The translations under genes and the position numbers were made by a program. Of a DNA stretch of 64,000 nt, positions 5,646 through 62,660 are shown piece after piece. How positions within the stretch are numbered: position 1 is the stretch's first letter; every line of letters begins with the position of its first letter. Source of the stretch: Paeniglutamicibacter sulfureus (GTDB taxonomy: Bacteria; Actinomycetota; Actinomycetes; Actinomycetales; Micrococcaceae); contig NZ_JAULBL010000002.1 in assembly GCF_030512175.1 (NCBI RefSeq), positions 2,354,149 through 2,418,148 of the forward strand. The letters run 5' to 3'. The notes under the pieces were generated by a model. The model did not search any database and had not been told where the DNA came from. It worked only from the letters and a program-made list of their open reading frames with translations.

Positions 5646-7181
5646 CTATGTCCGGTCGTGTGCGGGCTTCAGGTCGCTGGTCGCAGGGCCCTCGATCAAG
5701 ATGCCCGAGGGAGTGAAGCGGGAGCCGTGCAGCGGGCAGTCCCAAGAACGTTCCTCGTCGTTCCAGGTGAGGATCCCGCCCAAATGGGTGCAAACGGCCG
5801 AGACCCGACAGGTACGCCCATCCACGATTGATTCGGCGACGGGGTGAACGCCGTCATGGACCACCCTGCCATCTGTTCGTCCCGGCGCGGTTGCCTCGTC
5901 GGCGTCGGGGGCTTTTTCGGCGACGCGGGAATTGGATTCGGTCAGCGCGTGCGCCCAACCCGTCACCAGCCCCTTGGCAACACCCGCATTGAATTTGCCG
6001 GTTTCGGCCAGTGCCGCGGCACCGGAGGTGCGATGGGCCAACACCGCGCCCCAGGGGGTCTCCTCGCCCAGGATTTCGGTTGAGAGCCTCAATGCGGCTG
6101 CGACGGCGTTGGTCATGCCCCACTTGTTATATCCGGTGGCGACGTGGATCCGGCCGCCGCCGCGCGGCATCGGACCGACGAACGGCACGGCATTGACTGA
6201 ACGGTAGTCCTGTGCGGACCAAGCGTGCGTGCGTTCGGCCACCGTGAAGTGCTCCCTGGCCCACAGGTCCAGGTCCCGGGCAGCTGCGCTTGGGGACCCT
6301 GCGCCAACCGGGTGGCCATTGCCTCCCACCAGCAATACGGGCTTTCCGTGGCGTGTGGCAGTGCGCAGGGAACGACCTGGGTTCCCGACCGAGAGATACA
6401 TGCCTTGCGGAAAGGGCCGGCCGTCGGGGGCACCGGTGTAGGCAGCGAGGTAAGACCGGGAAGGTTTCAGTTTGGCGAAGAATCCACCCCTGTCCAAGAC
6501 AGGGGTGCCGGTGGCGATGATCAGCGTGTCGGCGAACAGCAATCCTTGATTGGTGGTGATCTCCAGGGGTGCGGAATTGCCCGCGCCGGTGAGACGGGTG
6601 TCCTCAAAGACCTTGACTCCGCGGGCGCGGACGTCATTGCATAGGGCCGTCAACACGTCCACGGGGTCGAACTGGGCCTGGTCGCGCAGGACGAGGGCTC
6701 CGGCAACCGCGTACGGCAGCCCGATATCCGGATCCTCCAGGGTGTCGATTTGCAGTCCGGCTTCACTGCTGGCCTGCGCCTCCTTTTCGAGTTGTTCGCG
6801 GCCCGAGGCATCGACTGCATAGGTGAAGGCATCACGGGATTGGTGCGGTACCCCGACCTCGTCAAGATACCGCAATAGCCAGGACTGTCCCTCCTTGTTC
6901 CCTTCCATATAGGCATGTGCGACTTCCGCAGGGAAATTCTTGCGGATTTCCTGCATCGTGGTGCCTTGAAGCAGACTCAGCTTCGCCGTGGTGTGCCCGG
7001 TGGTCCCGGCGCCCACGAATCGGGACTCGATCAATGCCACGCGCAATCCGGCCCTGCTAAGAAGCAGCGAGCTAACCAGACCGGTGAGGCCGGCCCCGGC
7101 CACCACCGCGTCGTAGTGCCCGTCGGGTACGAAGAGGTCTGTTGCAATGCCAGGTCGAGGATCTAGCCATATCGAGTCCAT
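5646..7181 (-). CDS. FAD-dependent oxidoreductase with C-terminal Rieske domain
   Basis: Protein of 511 residues, with a start at ATG 7181 behind AAGGAGCACACC. The N-terminal 400 residues form a DAO-type FAD domain: dinucleotide fold VVAGAGLTGLVSS near 26-38, the ESRFVGAGTTGHTTAK segment, and a late FAD motif with YNKWGMTNAVAAA. The C-terminus is a Rieske [2Fe-2S] domain with ligands Cys464-x-His466 and Cys482-x2-His485 (CTHLGG ... CPLHG). This fusion is known in Bacillus YhfW and relatives; substrate unknown. Its stop is 10 bases upstream of the long Ku start and 61 bases upstream of the chosen one. It probably leads a three-gene operon with ku and topoisomerase IB, joining a redox enzyme to DNA-repair genes. 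Confidence 0.88.
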   Translation of the reverse strand: MDSIWLDPRPGIATDLFVPDGHYDAVVAGAGLTGLVSSLLLSRAGLRVALIESRFVGAGTTGHTTAKLSLLQGTTMQEIRKNFPAEVAHAYMEGNKEGQSWLLRYLDEVGVPHQSRDAFTYAVDASGREQLEKEAQASSEAGLQIDTLEDPDIGLPYAVAGALVLRDQAQFDPVDVLTALCNDVRARGVKVFEDTRLTGAGNSAPLEITTNQGLLFADTLIIATGTPVLDRGGFFAKLKPSRSYLAAYTGAPDGRPFPQGMYLSVGNPGRSLRTATRHGKPVLLVGGNGHPVGAGSPSAAARDLDLWAREHFTVAERTHAWSAQDYRSVNAVPFVGPMPRGGGRIHVATGYNKWGMTNAVAAALRLSTEILGEETPWGAVLAHRTSGAAALAETGKFNAGVAKGLVTGWAHALTESNSRVAEKAPDADEATAPGRTDGRVVHDGVHPVAESIVDGRTCRVSAVCTHLGGILTWNDEERSWDCPLHGSRFTPSGILIEGPATSDLKPAHDRT

Positions 7182-7248
7182 GGTGTGCTCCTTGGGTTGC
7201 TTCTGCGGTTTTTTGTGGTGTCAGCGTCACTGGAGTGTTTCCCTCCAG

Positions 7249-7690
7249 CTACTGGGGACCCCTATTCTTCGGGTCATTTTCCAGCAAGGCATCCGAAAGC
7301 TTGGCCGCTGACTCGACCTGGGTGAAAAGCGGATCGCAGTCCGGCCCCCGTCCTGCGTTGTTGCCATGTGCGATCCATCCCTTGCGCTTCGGGTTCTCCC
7401 CAAACAGGTGCTTGAATTGGCAAAGCTGGCGGGCCAACCAATCCGTCAGGGGTCTTGTCCAGCAAAGTTCCGGGGATAGCGGATTGACTGATAAGGCCAG
7501 CATCTCGATCCCGCTCTCGTGGTCTTTGCTTCCCCGTTCGCGATCCGTCCCACCCTTCTGCATACCTGACATAGAGATCAGCAGATTGTTTGACCATTCG
7601 TTCAAGATCGACGAGCGAATCCAGCATCGGGACATCCACTGGTTTGCTTTCTCGCTGGCCCTGCCATGGGCTTGGATGGATCGCTGGCAT
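7249..7690 (-). pseudogene. Hypothetical gene apparently split by a frameshift
   Basis: Two overlapping minus-strand frames read like halves of one protein. The upstream half (7690 down to about 7550) gives MLDSLVDLERMVKQSADLYVRYAEG, which looks like a regular helix. The downstream half, in another frame (about 7560 to 7249), gives ESGIEMLALSVNPLSPELCW and WLARQLCQFKHLFGENPKRKGW, again with natural protein character. Past the crossing point each frame turns into Arg/Gly-rich noise. A single indel near the run GGGTGGGA (about 7553-7560) would join them as YAEGGTDRERG. This is either a real inactivation or a sequencing error. I do not recognise the family. Confidence 0.4.
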
Positions 7691-8494
7691 ATGGATCCAA
7701 CGCGTGATGGCGTGCTCGATATCGAGGGAGGGTCGAAGGACCACTCGTCTGCGTCGTTCGCCTGTGTGGTTCACTCTGTTAGCGCCGATGTGCCAGGACG
7801 GCTGCCGTGGGACGTCTTCTCGAAACGCGGAGATTGCGCGTGATGTCCGGCTCATGGGAGCAATTACGGACTGCTCAGCAGCAAACGGTCCCTTTGTTGG
7901 CAGTCGCGGTCGTCGGACCTCATCCTTCCGTGACTGTGCAAAATCGAATTCGGTTATGACTCTCCTGGATCTGGCGTTCTGCGCCATGCTTCGCCCCTTG
8001 CACGTCGGCGGGAAAAACATCGTGGTCATTCCGGGCGACCCAGGGTTCCCTGACCAAGCCCGGCAGTTGCATTGGTTTCGACGGTGCCCAGTCCTCGATC
8101 ACGGGACCGTCGCCCGATAGCTAGTATTCGCCGCGCAGGCGGCTCTGAGCTCTGCTAACCGAGCCATATGACGGTCCCATGGTCGAGCTGTGTAGTTCGA
8201 CTCTAATGGCACTCTTGCCATGCAAGGAAGGACTTTACACGTTGCTAGGAACATTCAATATCGACGTATTTATCGAATCGCGTGGAAGGCATCTCCAGTA
8301 TCGGAATATTACGGGGTTGAATCACCTGGAGGACCTTCGGTGCAACCGCAATTGAAGGCGATGGAAGGTTTTTACGGTTCAAAAGCCACCTCGGCGAGTC
8401 GCCAAAAACGGGTTGTCACGTCGGTGCTGGTTTATTACATTAGGTCTCGTCATCCCGCTCGTATAGGGGTCGAAGATACAAAAGGAGAAGAATC
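7691..8494. other. Intergenic region without a supported gene
   Basis: About 800 bases, with lower GC than the surrounding genes, especially 8130-8490. ORFs on both strands have no ribosome sites or recognisable motifs. It presumably includes the promoter of the Gly-rich protein gene, whose AAAGGAGAAG ribosome site lies at 8480-8489. I see no RNA gene or clear promoter consensus. Confidence 0.45.
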
Positions 8495-8911
8495 ATGGCA
8501 GATGAATACAACTCCGGACAGTTCGGAAACCAAGACGAAAACGAGAATCAAGATCTGATCGGCGGGGAGGCCGATGCTGGCAGCTTCGGCAACGGACAAA
8601 GCACGGATGGCTCGGAAATGGTCAGTGATTTAGGCGGCGATGGCGGCGGCCAGGAGTCCGGCGGGTTCGGCGGCGGCCAAGAGTCCGGTGGGTTCGGTGG
8701 CGGCGACGGCGGCGGCCAGGAGTCCGGTGGGTTCGGTGGCGGCGACGGCGGCGGCCAGGAGTCCGGTGGGTTCGGTGGCGGCGACGGCGGCGGCCAGGAG
8801 TCCGGTGGGTTCGGCGGCGACGGCGAACCCCTCGAGTCCGAGCAGCTCGGCGACCGTACCGGTAGCAGTGAAGACGAGACACTTGGCGAATTCGGCAACG
8901 AGGATCGTTAA
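8495..8911 (+). CDS. Acidic Gly-rich tandem-repeat protein
   Basis: Protein of 138 residues with a very good ribosome site (AAAGGAGAAGAATC-ATG). It is almost free of hydrophobic and basic residues: the N-terminal 45 residues are rich in Asn, Gln, Asp and Glu. The centre holds five copies of QESGGFGG in a Gly/Asp spacer, and the C-terminus is acidic (SSEDETLGEFGNEDR). FGN occurs three times outside the repeats. No signal peptide, membrane segment or cysteine is present, so it is predicted to be a soluble, disordered cytoplasmic protein. Hydrophilic Gly-rich proteins of this kind are often stress-induced, and its neighbourhood fits, but the role is inference. A strong hairpin terminator follows, so it is a single-gene transcript. 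Confidence 0.8.
   Translation: MADEYNSGQFGNQDENENQDLIGGEADAGSFGNGQSTDGSEMVSDLGGDGGGQESGGFGGGQESGGFGGGDGGGQESGGFGGGDGGGQESGGFGGGDGGGQESGGFGGDGEPLESEQLGDRTGSSEDETLGEFGNEDR
8641..8823 (+). repeat. 39-bp tandem repeats inside the Gly-rich gene
   Basis: The coding repeat QESGGFGG occurs five times. Copies 3, 4 and 5 begin at 39-base spacing (CAGGAGTCCGG at about 8717, 8756 and 8795) and are nearly identical at the DNA level. The first two are closer together (27 bases) and differ at some third positions (CAAGAG, GGCGGG). In-frame repeat length means copy number can change by slippage without breaking the frame. Confidence 0.9.
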
Positions 8912-8950
8912 GTATCAAGCGTGTGTCCAATAGAGGACGAGAACGCCTTC

Positions 8951-8982
8951 AGTGGTCGCTGTTCTTCGGAACGGCGACCACT
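8951..8982 (+). terminator. Hairpin terminator after the Gly-rich gene
   Basis: AGTGGTCGCTGTTC pairs with GAACGGCGACCACT across a TTCG tetraloop, giving a 14-bp stem with one G-U pair. It lies about 40 bases after the stop. Confidence 0.85.
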
Positions 8983-10021
8983 GTCGCTTGGTTAGGGTAG
9001 GTGTCTTTCGGTTGAGCGTCAACACTCCAAGAGCCCGTTGTTCCGATTGTTCAATTGACATCGGAAACTCAGCATTCATCTCACGCTACTAGGTGGGGAC
9101 GCAACTGCACTTCCCGCACTCGGCCGCCCATTAGTTGAAACTGCCGCGCGAGAGGGGCGGCTGCGATTCACGAGCCTTTGACGGGTTGCCGGAGTATGTG
9201 GATTTTCGTTCATTGGAGTAGCTTCAAAACGGATTCGATCGATCTGAACCGAAGCAGACCGACAACGTGATAATAGACGTCGCACGGGCGATGTCGTGGA
9301 CGTCCAGTTCGAGGCAATCGACCTTACTCATTCCCATAGGATCATTCCCACAGGACCCAAACTCACGGCCAAAAAAAATCATGCGCTCCCAGTTGCCTGC
9401 CCTTGCAGTATTCCGGCACTGTGGAGTCCCTGTGGCTCCTCCCTGTATTGAAGACGCGAGGTCCGCCCGAGTCGATGAAAAGTAGTCGCGATCGGTCCTC
9501 CGTACGTCAATTGACGATGGATGATTCAAGGTGCCACGTTTCCCATCCGGCGACCTGTACGGCAACGCTGGGCCTGGAGTCCAGTCGAAGGCCAGTTTCC
9601 GCTCTATACACCCTCTACGGTTATTGACGACTCAACCTCAAAGCAAGGGCAACGACCGTCCTCAAGGCTGTTTCTGACGGCCGCTCCGAAGCGCCGCGAC
9701 AGAGATCCCAACAATTTTCATGGGGTCGATGTCAAAAAGGTTGTGTCCGCGCGATTCTCTTGTTTTGCTGATTTGTATCGCGGATCCTTTAGCAGCGGGG
9801 ATCCAGCGTTTAGGTTCGGCATGGAAAGTTTCCTCTCTTGATCCTGAGCAAAGCGCGAACATTCAGGAAGCCGAAATACTGAGAACAAGTCAAGTTCATT
9901 GATTCGCATACGCGCCAAGGACCCGGTGCGATGCACGCACGGTGTCCCGCCACACAGGCTGCGGGTCACGAAATCCGACGAATACTGCCCTACGGGGCGT
10001 GGATCAATTGGAGGTCAACCA
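8983..10021. other. Intergenic region without a supported gene
   Basis: About 1 kb between the terminator and the second membrane cassette. It is less GC-rich than average, and its short ORFs on both strands lack ribosome sites and family features. The only supported element is the GGAGG ribosome site at 10010-10014 for the next gene. The promoter of the three-gene cassette must lie here, but I cannot place it. Confidence 0.45.
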
Positions 10022-53436: not shown

Positions 53437-55334
<1,898 letters not shown>

Positions 55335-55656
55335 GTCGTAAGTGAAACTATCACAACATTCAATCCGGCATCGAGTGTGACCTTGCGCACCGGCGCGGTG
55401 GGCCCTGGTCCTTTACCGGGCCTCCGCGCTTCTGGTCCCCAAGTGTCGGCGATTACCCCTTCGGGGCCAACCCGGGTGGCTTATCCGGCCTTCTGCGCGG
55501 TCAGCGGCAATATTTCCAGTGGAATCTGAACGAGCGGCACCGATTTTATGGGCACAATTCGGCCATGGTGCCGGCGTTCAAGGCGGAGAGCCGAAGCCAA
55601 TCGAGCTTTGACGGACCTGGCTGTAAGGAAGGAACTTCGCAGCTTGCCCCGGAGTG
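55335..55656. other. Intergenic region between thiC leader and rplS promoter
   Basis: About 320 bases without a supported gene. It holds GC-rich inverted stretches (near 55404-55430) and must contain the thiC promoter on the minus strand. No confident promoter could be placed. Confidence 0.45.
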
Positions 55657-56287: not shown

Positions 56288-56977
56288 GTGGATCAAACTA
56301 CTGAATCGGAACGTTTTTCCGCTTCGACAAAGCGCCGGTCCCCTTCGAGGGGCTGGCGCTTTGCCGTAGGCGCGCTTGCTGCGGCGGCGGTGATCACCCT
56401 TGGCGTTCGCGCCACCGTCGTTGACTTCTTCTACATTGGATCCACTTCCATGGAATCCACATTGAACCCGGGTGAGGGCTTGCTGGTGAACCGGCTCGCC
56501 TACAAGGACGCCGAGATCCAACGCGGAGATTTGGTCATCTTCGACGGCCGCGGCTCGTTCCTGCCCTACCAGCGTCCCACTGCCCTGGATTCACTGGCCT
56601 GGGCACTGCGCCTGGCCGGAGGTGGTTCGGTCTATGTAAAGCGCGTCATCGGAGTCGGGGGCGACACCGTCAGCTGCTGCGGCCCCGATGGGCGCCTGAG
56701 CATCAACGGTGTCCCCGTGGACGAGCCCTATGTCCATGGCGGGGACACACCGAGTGACGTGGAATTCGATGTCCACGTACCAGAGGGTCGTCTCTGGGTC
56801 ATGGGCGACCATCGCTCGGTATCCGAGGATTCGCGTGCGTTGATGGGCGCGCCAGGTGGCGGCATGATTGACACGGATCGTGTCATTGGCAAGGTGGCCG
56901 AAGTGGTGTGGCCACTGGAAAATAAGCGACCCATCGATGGCTCATCCGTATTGGGTGGACTACCCCTCGCCGAATAA
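56288..56977 (+). CDS. lepB: Signal peptidase I (first copy)
   Basis: Protein of 229 residues with a GTG start. One transmembrane anchor (about 22-42) precedes the catalytic domain. Nucleophile Ser in GSTSMESTL (about 54), box C NRLAYKDAEIQRGDLVIFDG, the general base Lys in VKRVIGVGGDTV (about 118) and box E VMGDHRSVSEDSR. It removes signal peptides outside the membrane. It is a paralogue of the copy at 61944; the two are separated by a protease and a lipoprotein gene. Confidence 0.94.
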   Translation: MDQTTESERFSASTKRRSPSRGWRFAVGALAAAAVITLGVRATVVDFFYIGSTSMESTLNPGEGLLVNRLAYKDAEIQRGDLVIFDGRGSFLPYQRPTALDSLAWALRLAGGGSVYVKRVIGVGGDTVSCCGPDGRLSINGVPVDEPYVHGGDTPSDVEFDVHVPEGRLWVMGDHRSVSEDSRALMGAPGGGMIDTDRVIGKVAEVVWPLENKRPIDGSSVLGGLPLAE

Positions 56978-58062
56978 CCGAACACCACTCCCGCAACACG
57001 AAGTGACGGCCGGCAGCCGTCGACTGGCCGTCGGCATCCTGGCAAACCCTCGTTCCGCCCCACCTCCTCGGATGACCAGAATCCTCGGCTTCTCGATGCG
57101 CGGCACCATTCACGGAGACGATCAGTCGACCTAATGGGTGTACTCCCCGTGCGATCCGGGACGAACGGGAAGTCTGCGTGCCGGTGGAAACCACAGGCAA
57201 GGAACACCCGGAAACGACCGTTGATGTCGCATCGATGCGCTAGGCGGATATCGGCAAACATACCTGCCGAGTAAGAACACTTCGCGACACCGTGTCCGAT
57301 TGGACTACGAATATAGCCAGGCATCCACCGCGCGAGGCCTGGCCGTGCTGGGCAAGCGAATGAATGCTTCTTTGGGTAAGCGCCGGCTACTTGACTGCCT
57401 GCAGGTCACTAGATCTTTCCCCTGCCCACGGCACCCGCATTCTCGGGCAAGGAGCGTTGGAATAATCATGGCCGATCGGCCAAACCGTCTGGCTGGTGCG
57501 CGGTAGTCGGTGCTGCCTCGAGCTGGATGGCAACTTCGATTCCCGTCGCCTGGTTGGCGTCAATACTTCGAGATTTCGGGGACATGGAACGGTGCCGTCC
57601 AGCAGGTTAGCCGCGTGCATGCGCCCGATTCCCTCAGCCTGTGTCCGGTGTCGAACTTCAAGTATTTCCATAAGGTTTCCATAATTTTCACATTGCGTGT
57701 GTCGATGTGAGCCGGCCAGCTTTCCGGCCGTCAGCACAGAAAAATGCACGGATGCCGGGAAATATCCAAAAGTTACGCGGGGAATCGACCGAGTATTGTT
57801 CCGGGCGTGTCGCGCCCAGTGACGCCCGTCTCCTTCCTGCCTTGCCGCGGAATCATGCGGAAGTGCAACTGGTTGGTTGACGCATCAATTATTCGAAACG
57901 CTGGAGTTTTGGAGCGGCGCTGTTTGTTAGGCGATATGTACAGAGGTTAGGGTTTCATTTTGGTAACACTCATTGCTCGCGGTGTGCCCAATCGGATGTC
58001 CCTTGACAGTCGCGGCGCACACAAAAGCGAGGTACCACACCTTGAATTGGGAGACCTCACAT
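56978..58062. other. Long intergenic region upstream of the protease gene
   Basis: More than 1 kb, less GC-rich than its flanks, with only short ORFs and no ribosome sites. Positions 57990-58062 carry the GGGAG ribosome site of the protease. Large upstream regions often hold complex promoters; no operator could be fixed. Confidence 0.45.
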
Positions 58063-61032
58063 ATGCACGAATCCTCACGTGCGCTATTGAAGCGCGGCAG
58101 CATTGCTGCCGCGACCACGGCGCTGGTGCTAGGGAGCAGCTTCGCTACCGTACCGGCGATCGCCACGACTTCAGTCGCCCCGGAGCCTGCGTCAACGGAG
58201 ACTTCGGCCGTCACGAGCGCTGAAGCATCACAGGACCAGAGCCAGGCGGCGCTGCCAAGCGGCCTGGAAGCGGCCGTCGAACGCGACCTCGGCATCACCA
58301 TTGATGAGTTCTACAAGAACGGCGAGCTGAGCTCAGTTGTCGAGTCGCTCTCGAAGGAATTGGGACAGTCGGAACTTGCCGCCGACTTTGCCATCGAGGA
58401 GAACAAAATCAAGGTCACGGTGGCTGCGTCATCTCTTGGGGCCGTCACCACGAAACTTGACGAGCTAACCAAGGGCACTGACGTTGAATTGCGCATCGTG
58501 ACAGAGCCCGAAGCCGAAGCCACGGTCGCGCCCAAAACGGTCGAGACCAAGAAGGCACCGAAGTCGCAGGACCCCACGGCTGCTCCGTCCAAGCTCCCGG
58601 TCATTGAGAGCCCGAAGACAGAGGCCACGGCCAAGCCGGAGGTCGTGGCAAAGGCGATGCCCAAGAGCGCCGAGTCGCTGCTCGAGGCATACGTCGAAAG
58701 CGTTGACCCGAAGGCCGTTTCCCAGCTTCAAGCGGTCATGAAGACCGGGTCCAACAGCTTTGTCATCCGTACCGGCGGAACCGCCGACGTGGAAGGCAGG
58801 AACACATCCGAGACCCCCAAGGCCACGGCCCTGCGGTTCGGCGAGAAGATGACGCCGGAGGAATTCGCCCAGCAATACACCAAGGTCACCATTGAGAAGG
58901 CAGAAGGGCCGGCAAAGTCTGCAGCAGCCGGCGATGTGCTCGGCGGCATGGGCTACGGTGCCCGGACAACCGGCACGGCTATCGCGCTGTGCTCGATTGG
59001 CTTCAGCGGCTTCAACGCCGACGGTGGCGACGCAGCAATTTCGGCAGGGCACTGTGAGCACGACGGTGACATCACCAAGGTCAACATCATGGAGCACACC
59101 GCTCCGAACGAGTTCGAGGGGATCGGCGCGCCCTTGGGAACCTTCGGATTCTCACAGTTCGGCGGACCGGGCAATTCACCGGTGACAGGCTTCGACACTG
59201 CAACGAAGATCGAGGACCTGGGCAATGTCGGGACCGACATCTCCGTCATCGACAACATCAACCCGGACCTAACTCTCAAATCCACGGTCACCGACTGGAA
59301 GGGTGCCGACGAGCGCGACTCCGGCACCAAGGTGACCGGAGTCGCCAGTGCCGTCATCGGCACCGAAATCTGCAAGTCCGGACGCACCACCGGCTGGACC
59401 TGTGGCACCGTGGACGAGGTCGGCATCTTCCTGGTCGGCGGATACAACGGCGCAGACGACGTCCGCGGTGTTCGCGGCTTCGGCATGGCCAACGTGGGCT
59501 TGAAGAAAGCCAACGAGGGCGACTCCGGCGGATCGGCCGTTTCCGGCGGCACAGCTGTGGGCGTCACGAGCGCGGTCTCGTCGAACGATGAAGGTCGAGC
59601 GTACTTCACCGACATCAAGGACGGGCTGAAGCACGCAAAGGGCTACTCCATCGCCCTGTTCCTCAATGCCCCGGCGGTGGCCTCGCCCTCCAACGGTGCC
59701 GACGTCACAGCAGGCTCAACGATCTCCGGCACCGTGGCTGGCGCTCCCTCCGGATCGCACGTCCGGGTCGTCTCCGGCGGCAAGTTGGTCAAGAAGGCCA
59801 CGGTCACCGCGGGCAAGTTCAGCTTCAAGGTTCCCGAGGACTTCGGCACGTACGACTTCACCCTGCAGACTGTCAACGGATTCAACAAGTCCGTCACCAC
59901 TGCAGGATCGGTGAACGTCGTGATCGGTGCACCGGTCATCACCACCCCGAAGAACGACGCCACGCTCAACGCACCGGTGTCCACCATCTCGGGAACCGGC
60001 GTTGTCGGGGCCACGGTGACACTCGCCGGGGATGCCACGGGCACCGCAACAGTCGCCACAGACGGCACGTGGAGCGTCAAGCTTCCCACCGCGCTGTCTT
60101 ACGGCGAGTACGCCATTTCGGCCACCCAGGCCAAGGGCGGCGAAACCTCGAAGGCCACCACCAGTTCCTTCAAGGTCCAGCTCGCCGCACCGGCCATCAC
60201 CGGCCCGGCAAACGGTAAGACCTTCACCGAGGCACAGTCCGTGATTTCGGGAACCGGCGTTGCCGGCGCAACCGTCAAGTTGACCGGTGCCGTCACGCGC
60301 GAAGTTGTCGTGGGCAAGGATGGTTCCTGGAGCGTCGAGCTTCAAGAAGGCCTGTCCTACGGATCCCACAGCATCACGGCTGTGCAGAACGTCGGCGAGA
60401 CCACGTCTACTTCGGTGAAGAGCGACTTCAAGGTCGTACCGGTGGCACCGTCGATCGATTCGCCGACCGATGGCCAAGAGTTCGCCTTCGACAAGGCCCC
60501 GAGGACCATCAGCGGTTTCGGCATCAACGGGGCCACGATCAAGGTGAGCCTTGACGGCACCGAACTGTCCTCCGCTGTTGCTGCCAACGGCAACGTCGCA
60601 GAAACCGCTAACGCGGCAAGCGGCGAATCCGAGGTTGCCGCAGTCGTGGTCAATGGCGCCTGGACCGTCATGGTCCCGGAGGACCTGGAAGCCGGCGACC
60701 ACAAGGTCACGGCTGTACAGGTCATTGACGGGGTTGCCTCGGCGGCCATATCGAACACCTTCACCGTTGCCGCGGCACCGAAGCCGGAACCGACCGAAGA
60801 GCCAACCGCTTCGCCGGAACCCACGCAGGACTCCGAACCTTCCAAGGCTCCGGTCGTTCCGCAGGGCGAGATCAACGGCAATGACAGCGGCAACGGCGGC
60901 AACGGCGGCCTGGCCAACACCGGCGCGAACGCCGTCCTGCCAATTATCGCCGCAGGCGGTGCACTGATGGTTGCAGGCGGGTTCTTCATGCTCTCGCGCC
61001 GCAAGAACAACTCCGGACTCCACAGTGCCTAA
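58063..61032 (+). CDS. Secreted S1-type protease with Ig-like repeats and LAxTG anchor
   Basis: Protein of 989 residues from the ATG after GGGAGACCTCACAT. Signal peptide 1-36. Pro-domain-like region about 60-145 (AVERDLGITIDEFYKNG, NKIKVTVAASSLGAVTTKLDEL). The trypsin/alpha-lytic-type protease domain runs about 290-540: catalytic His330 in ISAGHC, Asp in TDISVIDN (392 or 397) and Ser488 in NEGDSGGSAV, with paired cysteines at 310/331 and 437/447. Four Ig-like repeats cover about 538-905 (ISGTG-VAGATVKL and DGSWSVxL units); the fourth has a 23-residue insert. A Pro/Glu linker precedes the sortase signal LANTG (950-954), a hydrophobic helix and an RRK tail. A cell-wall anchored protease; sortase E-type attachment is the likely route. 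Pro-domain and substrates are inference. Confidence 0.9.
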   Translation: MHESSRALLKRGSIAAATTALVLGSSFATVPAIATTSVAPEPASTETSAVTSAEASQDQSQAALPSGLEAAVERDLGITIDEFYKNGELSSVVESLSKELGQSELAADFAIEENKIKVTVAASSLGAVTTKLDELTKGTDVELRIVTEPEAEATVAPKTVETKKAPKSQDPTAAPSKLPVIESPKTEATAKPEVVAKAMPKSAESLLEAYVESVDPKAVSQLQAVMKTGSNSFVIRTGGTADVEGRNTSETPKATALRFGEKMTPEEFAQQYTKVTIEKAEGPAKSAAAGDVLGGMGYGARTTGTAIALCSIGFSGFNADGGDAAISAGHCEHDGDITKVNIMEHTAPNEFEGIGAPLGTFGFSQFGGPGNSPVTGFDTATKIEDLGNVGTDISVIDNINPDLTLKSTVTDWKGADERDSGTKVTGVASAVIGTEICKSGRTTGWTCGTVDEVGIFLVGGYNGADDVRGVRGFGMANVGLKKANEGDSGGSAVSGGTAVGVTSAVSSNDEGRAYFTDIKDGLKHAKGYSIALFLNAPAVASPSNGADVTAGSTISGTVAGAPSGSHVRVVSGGKLVKKATVTAGKFSFKVPEDFGTYDFTLQTVNGFNKSVTTAGSVNVVIGAPVITTPKNDATLNAPVSTISGTGVVGATVTLAGDATGTATVATDGTWSVKLPTALSYGEYAISATQAKGGETSKATTSSFKVQLAAPAITGPANGKTFTEAQSVISGTGVAGATVKLTGAVTREVVVGKDGSWSVELQEGLSYGSHSITAVQNVGETTSTSVKSDFKVVPVAPSIDSPTDGQEFAFDKAPRTISGFGINGATIKVSLDGTELSSAVAANGNVAETANAASGESEVAAVVVNGAWTVMVPEDLEAGDHKVTAVQVIDGVASAAISNTFTVAAAPKPEPTEEPTASPEPTQDSEPSKAPVVPQGEINGNDSGNGGNGGLANTGANAVLPIIAAGGALMVAGGFFMLSRRKNNSGLHSA

Positions 61033-61076
61033 CCACGTGGTCCTCGGCTAGCCGGGACTCGTGAGCGAGGGGGGGT

Positions 61077-61108
61077 CTTCCGCGGAATTGGTAGTCATTC
61101 CGCGGAAG
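61077..61108 (+). terminator. 12-bp hairpin after the protease gene
   Basis: CTTCCGCGGAAT (61077-61088) and ATTCCGCGGAAG (61097-61108) are perfect reverse complements around an 8-base loop, followed by GCCCCTGCTTTTC. Confidence 0.87.
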
Positions 61109-61191
61109 GCCCCTGCTTTTCCCACGCCTCATCCAGCCAACGCCCCGGAACCTCCCTTAGACTCGTCCCACATCAGAAGGTGGTCACTCAT

Positions 61192-61749
61192 TTGAACAAC
61201 CCCATGGCACGAACCGCACTGGGCGGAGTCGCGCTGGCGGCGGTGCTCCTGCTTTCCGCCTGCGGCAGCGAGACCGGAAGCCCGACCTCCTCCAGCCCGA
61301 CACCCCCGGCGACACTCAGCGCCACACCGAACGAGAGCCAGGATCCGGATTTGCTCCAACTCAACGAATCACTCAAGGAAACCCTGGGGGACAACTACTC
61401 CGAGGGTTGGATCGAGGGGAACAAACTGCACGTTGCAGTCATCGACCAGGCCTCCGCGGCCACCGTCACGGAGGCCGGTGCGGTGGCACACCTGGCGAAG
61501 CATTCGGCCGCCGAAATCGAGGCCGCCATCGGCAAGGTCATGTCCTGGCAGCGCGAACAGGGCGGGGACGTCGCCACTGCCATCCACCGCTACCTCCCGT
61601 CCGGACGCGACGGCTCCATCACACTCGCCGTCGACTCCGCCCAACTTGCGGGAATCGAGAAGGGGCTCAAAGAAGGCAAGGTCACCGGAGACATCGAGCT
61701 GAAGTTTGTGGAATCCGACGGACCGGCAACCCCCGCCAGCTCCGGCTGA
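61192..61749 (+). CDS. Lipoprotein resembling a stand-alone alpha-lytic protease pro-domain
   Basis: Protein of about 185 residues. TTG 61192 has GAAGGTGG at good spacing; GTG 61180 and ATG 61204 are alternatives. The signal peptide has lipobox LLLSACGS (Cys about 24), then a Ser/Pro/Thr linker to about 48. The body (about 50-180) reads LLQLNESLKETLGDNYSEGW, IEGNKLHVAVIDQASAATVT and EAGAVAHLAKHSAAEIEAA. That is the alternating strand-helix pattern of the Pro_Al_protease domain found at the N-terminus of streptogrisin/alpha-lytic proteases, but with no protease attached. A Cys-anchored pro-domain 160 bases after a chymotrypsin-like protease suggests an external foldase or inhibitor acting in trans. 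This family match is from memory and unverified. Confidence 0.75.
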   Translation: MNNPMARTALGGVALAAVLLLSACGSETGSPTSSSPTPPATLSATPNESQDPDLLQLNESLKETLGDNYSEGWIEGNKLHVAVIDQASAATVTEAGAVAHLAKHSAAEIEAAIGKVMSWQREQGGDVATAIHRYLPSGRDGSITLAVDSAQLAGIEKGLKEGKVTGDIELKFVESDGPATPASSG

Positions 61750-61943: not shown

Positions 61944-62660
61944 GTGAGCCACGCCAGCGACGCAGCCGCAACACCCGATCGACCGCGGAAAAAGCGAAAC
62001 CCCGTGTGGGCCGCCATCCGCGAAGTCCTGATCATCGTCGTGGTGGCCCTGGTGATATCACTGGTCGTCAAGACATTCTTCTTCCGCGCCTTCTACATCC
62101 CCTCCGGCTCCATGGAACAAACGCTGCAGGTCAACGACCGCATCTTCGCCAATCTCATGGCACCGGGTCCGTTCGAGCTCTCGCGCGGCGACGTTGTGGT
62201 GTTCCGCGACGAAGAGGGCTGGCTGCCCCCGATCCCTTCCCCGGAGACCAACGCCGTCAGCGATTTCTTCACCTTCGTCGGACTGCTTCCGGACCCGTCC
62301 AGCCAACACCTGATCAAGCGGATCATCGGCATGCCCGGAGATACCGTCGAGTGTTGCTCCGCCGACGGCAGACTGAGCATCAACGGCGTGGAAATCACCG
62401 AGCCTTACATCTACCCGGGTGACAACCCCTCGGACTCCGAGTTCACCAAGACCGTCCCGGAGGGCAAGATCTGGGTCATGGGCGACCACCGCGGTGCCTC
62501 CGCGGACTCCCGCTTCCACGAGGATTTGCAGGACGGCTTCGTCGACCTTTCAGCCGTCGAGGGACGGGCAGCGGTCATCTCCTGGCCGCTGGACCGCCTG
62601 GGCGGCATCTCCGGCGAGGACGAGGTCTTCGCCGGCGTCCCTGTGCCGGCGAACCAATGA
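61944..62660 (+). CDS. lepB: Signal peptidase I (second copy)
   Basis: Protein of 238 residues with a GTG start (AAAGGG upstream). The anchor helix (about 22-43: VWAAIREVLIIVVVALVISLVVKTFF) leads to Ser in IPSGSMEQTL (about 56). Box C VNDRIFANLMAPGPFELSRGDVVVF, Lys in IKRIIGMPGDTV (about 130) and box E VMGDHRGASADSR follow. It is a closer match to the canonical LepB than the first copy. Its stop overlaps rnhB by ATGA. Confidence 0.94.
   Translation: MSHASDAAATPDRPRKKRNPVWAAIREVLIIVVVALVISLVVKTFFFRAFYIPSGSMEQTLQVNDRIFANLMAPGPFELSRGDVVVFRDEEGWLPPIPSPETNAVSDFFTFVGLLPDPSSQHLIKRIIGMPGDTVECCSADGRLSINGVEITEPYIYPGDNPSDSEFTKTVPEGKIWVMGDHRGASADSRFHEDLQDGFVDLSAVEGRAAVISWPLDRLGGISGEDEVFAGVPVPANQ

Follow-up and report, generated by a model that had tools for sequence, protein, structure and literature searches.

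Introduction

The pro region of alpha-lytic protease, a serine protease of family S1E, is the classic model of a domain that catalyses the folding of its own enzyme and then inhibits it, and it also acts in trans in vitro. The known pro regions of this type (PF02983; structures 2pro, 3pro and 4pro) are N-terminal in the chain of the protease. In the available text of earlier papers the pro region is described as catalysing folding, with the pro junction lying across the active site (PMC2829044), and as inhibiting the mature enzyme (PMC2605481). The available part of a 2008 survey mentions the pro-domain only as attached to trypsin-like enzymes (PMC2605481), and a literature search covering titles and abstract openings, with few subscription journals, found no description of a free-standing S1E pro-domain. 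Here we describe a window of 64,000 nucleotides from Paeniglutamicibacter sulfureus, the whole stretch of DNA that was analysed, in which the gene of a predicted wall-sorted S1E protease is followed by one for a lipoprotein, which we call LIP, that appears to be such a free-standing pro-domain.

Parallels to this arrangement come from other protein families. Lipase-specific foldases supply the folding step for lipases, and Lif, like LIP, is a membrane-anchored partner encoded beside a secreted hydrolase; it is, however, an unrelated protein that acts on lipases and is not known to be a former pro-domain. The PrsA-type foldases resemble LIP in being lipoproteins at the secretion site, but in the accounts available they are peptidyl-prolyl isomerase chaperones of secreted proteins and are not protease-specific. 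Free-standing propeptide inhibitors of subtilases are known, namely SUB1-ProM, TgMIC5, the yeast peptidase B inhibitor and Arabidopsis subtilisin propeptide-like inhibitor 1 (PMC6993865). These too are free-standing copies of a protease pro-domain, and the gene of SUB1-ProM adjoins subtilase genes, SUB1 having its own propeptide, but they belong to another protease family with a different pro-domain fold, are eukaryotic, and in the part of the source available no lipid anchor is mentioned (PMC6993865).

Results

Homology of LIP to S1E pro-domains

The pair and the parts of LIP are as follows.

58063..61032, forward strand: protease open reading frame (ORF), 989 amino acids, putative S1E-type serine protease precursor with a wall-sorting signal
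61192..61749, forward strand: LIP ORF, 185 amino acids, predicted free-standing pro-domain
61261..61344, forward strand: lipobox Cys24 (by motif) and a disordered tether of ~27 residues (predicted local distance difference test, pLDDT, mostly <50)
61345..61710, forward strand: predicted two-lobed pro-domain (pLDDT mostly ~90-97; Foldseek matches 1-7 are the alpha-lytic pro region)
61711..61746, forward strand: C-terminal tail ESDGPATPASSG, similar to the pro/mature junction of the protease

The original prediction had likened the body of the lipoprotein to the alpha-lytic protease pro-domain. From a single sequence this likeness is invisible: LIP alone has no PF02983 match in Pfam at E ≤ 10, one of 22 LIP family members has a weak one (0.013), and searches with the single sequence against Pfam, NCBIfam, the PDB and the protease yielded no useful match. 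Matches of LIP to the NCBIfam LppK and WKL lipoprotein families were rejected, as they lie far under the cut-offs and cover only the N-terminal half, and plasmid records gave zero matches.

With profiles, on the other hand, the match is strong in both directions. A profile built from 38 LIP rows from family genomes, the window included, was run as a hidden Markov model (HMM) without the signal region on 556 ORFs from 30 loci carrying PF02983 pro-domains, and it matched the protease ORF in 27 of these loci at E ≤ 1e-3 (best 3.5e-16). Conversely, a canonical profile of 18 S1E pro-domains, picked from the PF02983 loci by a motif filter, was searched against 7,406 ORFs from the surroundings of this protease family; at E ≤ 1e-5 it found all 31 LIPs, two of which are probably duplicates retrieved under a second name, and no other ORF. 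The window LIP scored 2.2e-8. The two alignments compared with hhalign gave a probability of 98.4%, and in the PDB a LIP profile of 22 rows found the alpha-lytic pro region (2pro/3pro/4pro) at E 6.9e-6 in one stretch, residues 29-161 of 166. Since the profiles match so strongly, we read the missing single-sequence PF02983 match as a detection limit. LIP differs from the canonical pro-domains in that its match begins after their N-terminal ERDLG segment.

The AlphaFold2 model of LIP (pLDDT 82.6; core ~90-97) has the two-lobed fold of the pro region. When it was compared with the PDB using Foldseek, the seven chains of the alpha-lytic pro region took the first seven places, with E-values from 1e-5 to 1.5e-3. 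We take homology of LIP to the S1E pro-domains as established by the profiles in both directions, the predicted fold agreeing.

Whereas the known pro regions are joined to their enzyme, LIP is a separate ORF in all 38 aligned rows and is not joined to an S1E protease in any of them, so we file it as a free-standing variant rather than an ordinary PF02983 member. By its signal peptide and lipobox Cys motif LIP qualifies as a bacterial lipoprotein: the lipobox reads LSAC in the window and the Cys is present in every one of the 38 aligned rows, that of the window among them (L021, L022 and L029 were judged by eye). The start codon is TTG in the window and ATG at the same place in six aligned relatives.

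The protease and the C-terminal tail of LIP

Downstream of its own pro region, the protease has the following parts.

58933..59673, forward strand: catalytic domain with H330, D392 and S488 (PDB sequence matches and fold match)
59680..60777, forward strand: immunoglobulin (Ig)-like repeat stalk (Big_13, Big_6 and Ca_tandemer matches; limits approximate)
60910..60924, forward strand: LANTG sorting motif, followed by a hydrophobic stretch and an RRK tail

Judged by its catalytic triad and predicted fold, the product is an S1E serine protease of the streptogrisin/alpha-lytic type. Among the solved S1E proteases the catalytic part matches the Nocardiopsis protease by sequence (E 5.9e-7), and the fold of its predicted structure agrees with those of Lysobacter L5, NAPase and alpha-lytic protease. 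The features first read from the sequence (989 residues, His330, Ser488, LANTG) are borne out: H330, D392 and S488 are unchanged across 44 aligned sequences, the window counted, and the sorting signal lies above the cut-offs of both NCBIfam NF058582 (29.7 bits, cut-off 27) and TIGR01167 (22.2 bits, cut-off 15.9). The protease thus qualifies, by its LPXTG-like signal, as a putative sortase-dependent wall protein.

As in the alpha-lytic pro region, the C-terminus of LIP lies near the place where the mature enzyme starts. In the window it reads ...IELKFVESDGPATPASSG, and the protease's own pro/mature junction reads ...VTIEKAEGPAKSAAAG followed by DVLGGMGYG, the cleavage point between VTIEKAEGPAKSAAAG and DVLGG being placed by homology. 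The likeness recurs in other pairs, SSGPATPL being present in both proteins of L123 and GVPL in both of L068, and is weak in some, such as L133 and L135 (scores 12). We scored 28 of the 31 pairs, leaving out L064 and L066, which are duplicates, and L149, which was also excluded from the LIP alignment because its ORF continues out of register. LIP tails matched their own junctions with a mean best ungapped score of 24.2, compared with 10.7-14.4 for junctions against eight other LIP segments and 9.8-14.4 for tails against eight other protease segments. When partners were shuffled, the cognate mean was reached in 0 of 5,000 trials. This resemblance, seen at the level of sequence, is a line of support that the original prediction did not have.

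Pairing of LIP with the protease

Across 197 family genomes (thresholds E<1e-10 for LIP and E<1e-40 for the protease), LIP is present in 38 and the protease in 52, and all 38 genomes with LIP carry the protease. These counts leave aside eight genomes with weak LIP matches only (2e-4 to 1e-3) and four with weak protease matches (G004, G097, G114 and G144; 5e-9 to 1.4e-6). By match position LIP lies on the same strand just downstream of the protease in 37 of the 38; in the remaining genome (G052) the two are on different contigs, near the contig ends, and its protease (L120) is labelled as having LIP in the tree described below. In the 145 genomes without the protease LIP was found in none at the same threshold. 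A wider survey of 297 genomes of the order, with 11 candidates scored per genome, gave matches for 10 genomes from beyond the family, and there the matching ORFs were all ≥389 amino acids long; by ORF length alone these are taken as attached pro-domains.

The dependence is in one direction. The protease occurs without LIP in 14 of its 52 genomes, and LIP is found in 22 of the 80 named loci kept from the 105 that the protease profile detected. In a rapidly built tree of 95 catalytic domains, the presence of LIP requires six changes, of which well-supported branches force at least five, and a clade of 55 Arthrobacter/Pseudarthrobacter-type proteases has LIP in none. Given these absences and the forced changes, LIP is not essential to the protease. 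The expectation that the two genes co-occur therefore holds for LIP, which is never found without the protease, but not for the protease, which is often found without LIP. The gene that directly follows the protease in P. antarcticus, G180 and G094 is that of the second signal peptidase, an order that fits loss of LIP.

These patterns bear on two other explanations. LIP could regulate a different secreted protease, its position beside this one being historical, and the window genome does encode two other trypsin-family proteases. Neither of these is found by the family profile of the present protease, however, which detects a single member in the genome, and the genome has zero PF02983 matches in a search that was positive in 29 of 148 class genomes. 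As LIP is also missing from the 145 genomes that lack this protease, and its tail resembles the junction of this protease, we consider a different target very improbable. LIP might alternatively be a relic, or a pro-domain re-used for another job in the envelope such as tethering the protease to the membrane, or being a substrate of the protease or a sensor of its activity. The repeated changes on the protease tree would suit this; but LIP depends on the presence of the protease, and relatives down to 27% identity keep the sequence core, the lipobox and the C-terminal tail, which makes such a relic or re-use improbable.

The protease's own pro region

The protease has a pro region of its own, and in standing beside such an enzyme LIP again differs from the pro regions known.

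58255..58506, forward strand: N-lobe of the pro region, ~residues 65-148 (hhalign 94.5%; model elements H41 to E121)
58507..58662, forward strand: Pro/Ala/Lys/Thr-rich linker within the pro region (mostly low pLDDT; alignment)
58669..58932, forward strand: diverged C-lobe of the pro region (model elements H176 to E253), ending at the pro/mature junction

A pro segment had been proposed at residues 60-145, and the N-lobe indeed aligns with the N-terminal part of the canonical S1E pro-domains with the hhalign probability given above. For the C-lobe, which the model separates from the N-lobe by a low-confidence linker, hhalign gave no sequence match to the canonical C-lobes. The canonical pro-domain HMM run against 101 protease ORFs found none at E ≤ 1e-5 and five at E ≤ 1e-3 (best 2.2e-4). 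As all 31 LIPs and none of these ORFs match the canonical profile at E ≤ 1e-5, the free-standing LIP appears to be the better-preserved pro-domain of the pair. LIP and the protease's own pro region compare at an hhalign probability of only 5.7%, so a recent duplication of LIP from this protease is not supported.

Such a difference in preservation would be expected if LIP were a dedicated trans foldase at the secretion site, supplying a step that the decayed pro region of the protease cannot perform alone. Of the two pro regions LIP is by far the better match to the canonical pro-domains, the C-lobe of the protease's pro region is unrecognisable by sequence, and own-pro-region scores have a slightly lower median where LIP is present (8.6 bits in 31 proteases) than in the large clade without it (10.15 bits in 54; Mann-Whitney p 0.008, with no correction for relatedness). 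This difference is small, however, and the window protease itself scores 10.6 bits, so there is no clear hand-over and we do not claim that the own pro region decayed as LIP took over. With the protease also kept without LIP in the 14 genomes noted above, we regard a dedicated foldase as unlikely.

In P. quisquiliarum (L111:6082-6366 and 6357-8984) the protease frame is broken inside the pro region and LIP is intact; the break could be a sequencing error. The proteases of G094 (L069) and P. antarcticus (L117) have a short N-terminus, and neither is accompanied by LIP; in the alignment the N-lobe of the G094 protease is absent. A joint loss of N-lobe and LIP in these genomes was considered and rejected, as the two are sister rows and G180, also without LIP, keeps the N-lobe.

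Genomic context and expression

Around the pair and between its genes lie four further features.

56288..56977, forward strand: signal-peptidase-like gene lepB1, presumed, upstream of the protease; conserved neighbour
61071..61114, forward strand: hairpin of 18 bp between the genes, strong (z -3.98), in 7 aligned genus loci
61158..61163, forward strand: TAGACT, a -10-like box upstream of LIP, identical in 6 of 7 loci
61944..62660, forward strand: signal-peptidase-like gene lepB2, presumed, downstream of LIP; conserved neighbour

The gap between protease and LIP is 159 bp in the window, or 147 bp if counted to an upstream GTG. The hairpin in it may be a terminator or attenuator. Some pairs of the stem show compensatory change, in one sequence each, and the covariation term over the whole alignment is slightly unfavourable (+2.27). 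The TAGACT box could be part of a promoter of LIP's own, and because of the hairpin and the conserved box the sequences suggest that LIP forms, in part if not wholly, a separate unit in this genus. Elsewhere, in other genera, the first possible start codon of the LIP ORF can follow after a gap of only 14 bp.

Named relatives and the protease tree place the window beside Paeniglutamicibacter species. The order rplS-lepB-protease-LIP-lepB-rnhB is found in the window, in 6 loci of the Paeniglutamicibacter clade and in 6 Glutamicibacter-clade loci, where rplS, lepB and rnhB are what we take these genes to be, the two genes at 56288-56977 and 61944-62660 being presumed signal peptidases from their sequence and not from a family search. 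Two signal-peptidase-like paralogues on either side of the pair are thus the arrangement in both clades; neighbours of the rplS/lepB/rnhB type were not found within the fetched flanks of the other LIP-bearing loci. The ~1.1 kb between the first signal-peptidase-like gene and the protease (56978-58062) holds no evident gene, and an Rfam scan of it gave zero matches at E ≤ 1. Further upstream, a thiamine pyrophosphate (TPP) riboswitch at 55234-55341 on the reverse strand (RF00059, 58 bits against a gathering threshold of 54.3) sits upstream of a gene at 53437-55239 that is presumably thiC-like.

Discussion

It would seem somewhat probable that LIP is a membrane-tethered pro-domain that acts in trans on the neighbouring protease, as a lock and possibly as a folding helper. 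LIP would be held at the outer face of the membrane by its lipid anchor and would dock on the catalytic domain as this leaves the secretion channel, in the manner of the pro region in 3pro and 4pro. The C-terminal tail of LIP would occupy the active site as a cleavage product does when it stays bound. LIP would keep the enzyme inactive, and might assist its folding, for as long as the enzyme has not left the membrane, the tether of ~27 residues confining the lock to this location. The sorting signal of the protease, being C-terminal, would emerge last, and upon linkage to the wall the long Ig-like stalk would carry the catalytic domain further out than the short tether extends. The protease would then be switched on when the lock is digested or lost. 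The homology and predicted fold, the lipid anchor motif, the sorting signal, the gene pairing and the resemblance of the tail are what the analysis shows; from them we infer the binding, the placing of the tail in the active site, the inhibition and the spatial release.

Several observations weigh against it. The model of the protease retains a two-lobed pro region of its own, the protease is found without LIP, LIP changes repeatedly on the protease tree, and the genome offers two other trypsin-family proteases. Concerning the homology, nine designed armadillo proteins outrank the pro region in the PDB search with the LIP profile; we rejected these as sums of repeated weak matches with no single stretch passing. 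The seven pro-region matches in Foldseek reach moderate TM scores (0.48-0.53, by query length), and an unrelated eighth match follows closely in E-value (1.7e-3 against 1.5e-3 for the seventh) with a TM score of 0.32. Concerning the tail, the motif search used to delimit it has a preference for G-x-A that may inflate the score, and as 236 of 5,000 within-clade shuffles reach the cognate score, a lineage-specific matching of tail to junction is only suggested.

Because the protease has kept a pro region and many genomes with the protease lack LIP, the latter is probably an added regulator and not an obligate foldase. By analogy with alpha-lytic protease, the lock and folding roles may be combined. 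The notion of a pro-domain acting in trans thus stands so far as LIP is a free-standing relative never found, in the genomes searched, without the neighbouring protease; what becomes less likely is an obligate trans foldase, given the pro region that the protease has kept and its occurrence without LIP.

We give an even chance to the fuller proposal of a natural trans-acting pro region, in which the canonical pro-domain, turned into a membrane lipoprotein, folds and/or locks a kinetically controlled S1E protease at the membrane only, the enzyme being released by wall sorting. If this is true, the zymogen lock would be spatial and reusable, not covalent. A natural version of the alpha-lytic system supplied in trans from the membrane would also make folding and inhibition genetically separable, since one gene could be deleted and the other kept. 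It would show how wall proteases stay harmless near the membrane, and LIP would be a natural candidate inhibitor for the secreted proteases of Arthrobacter-like soil bacteria.

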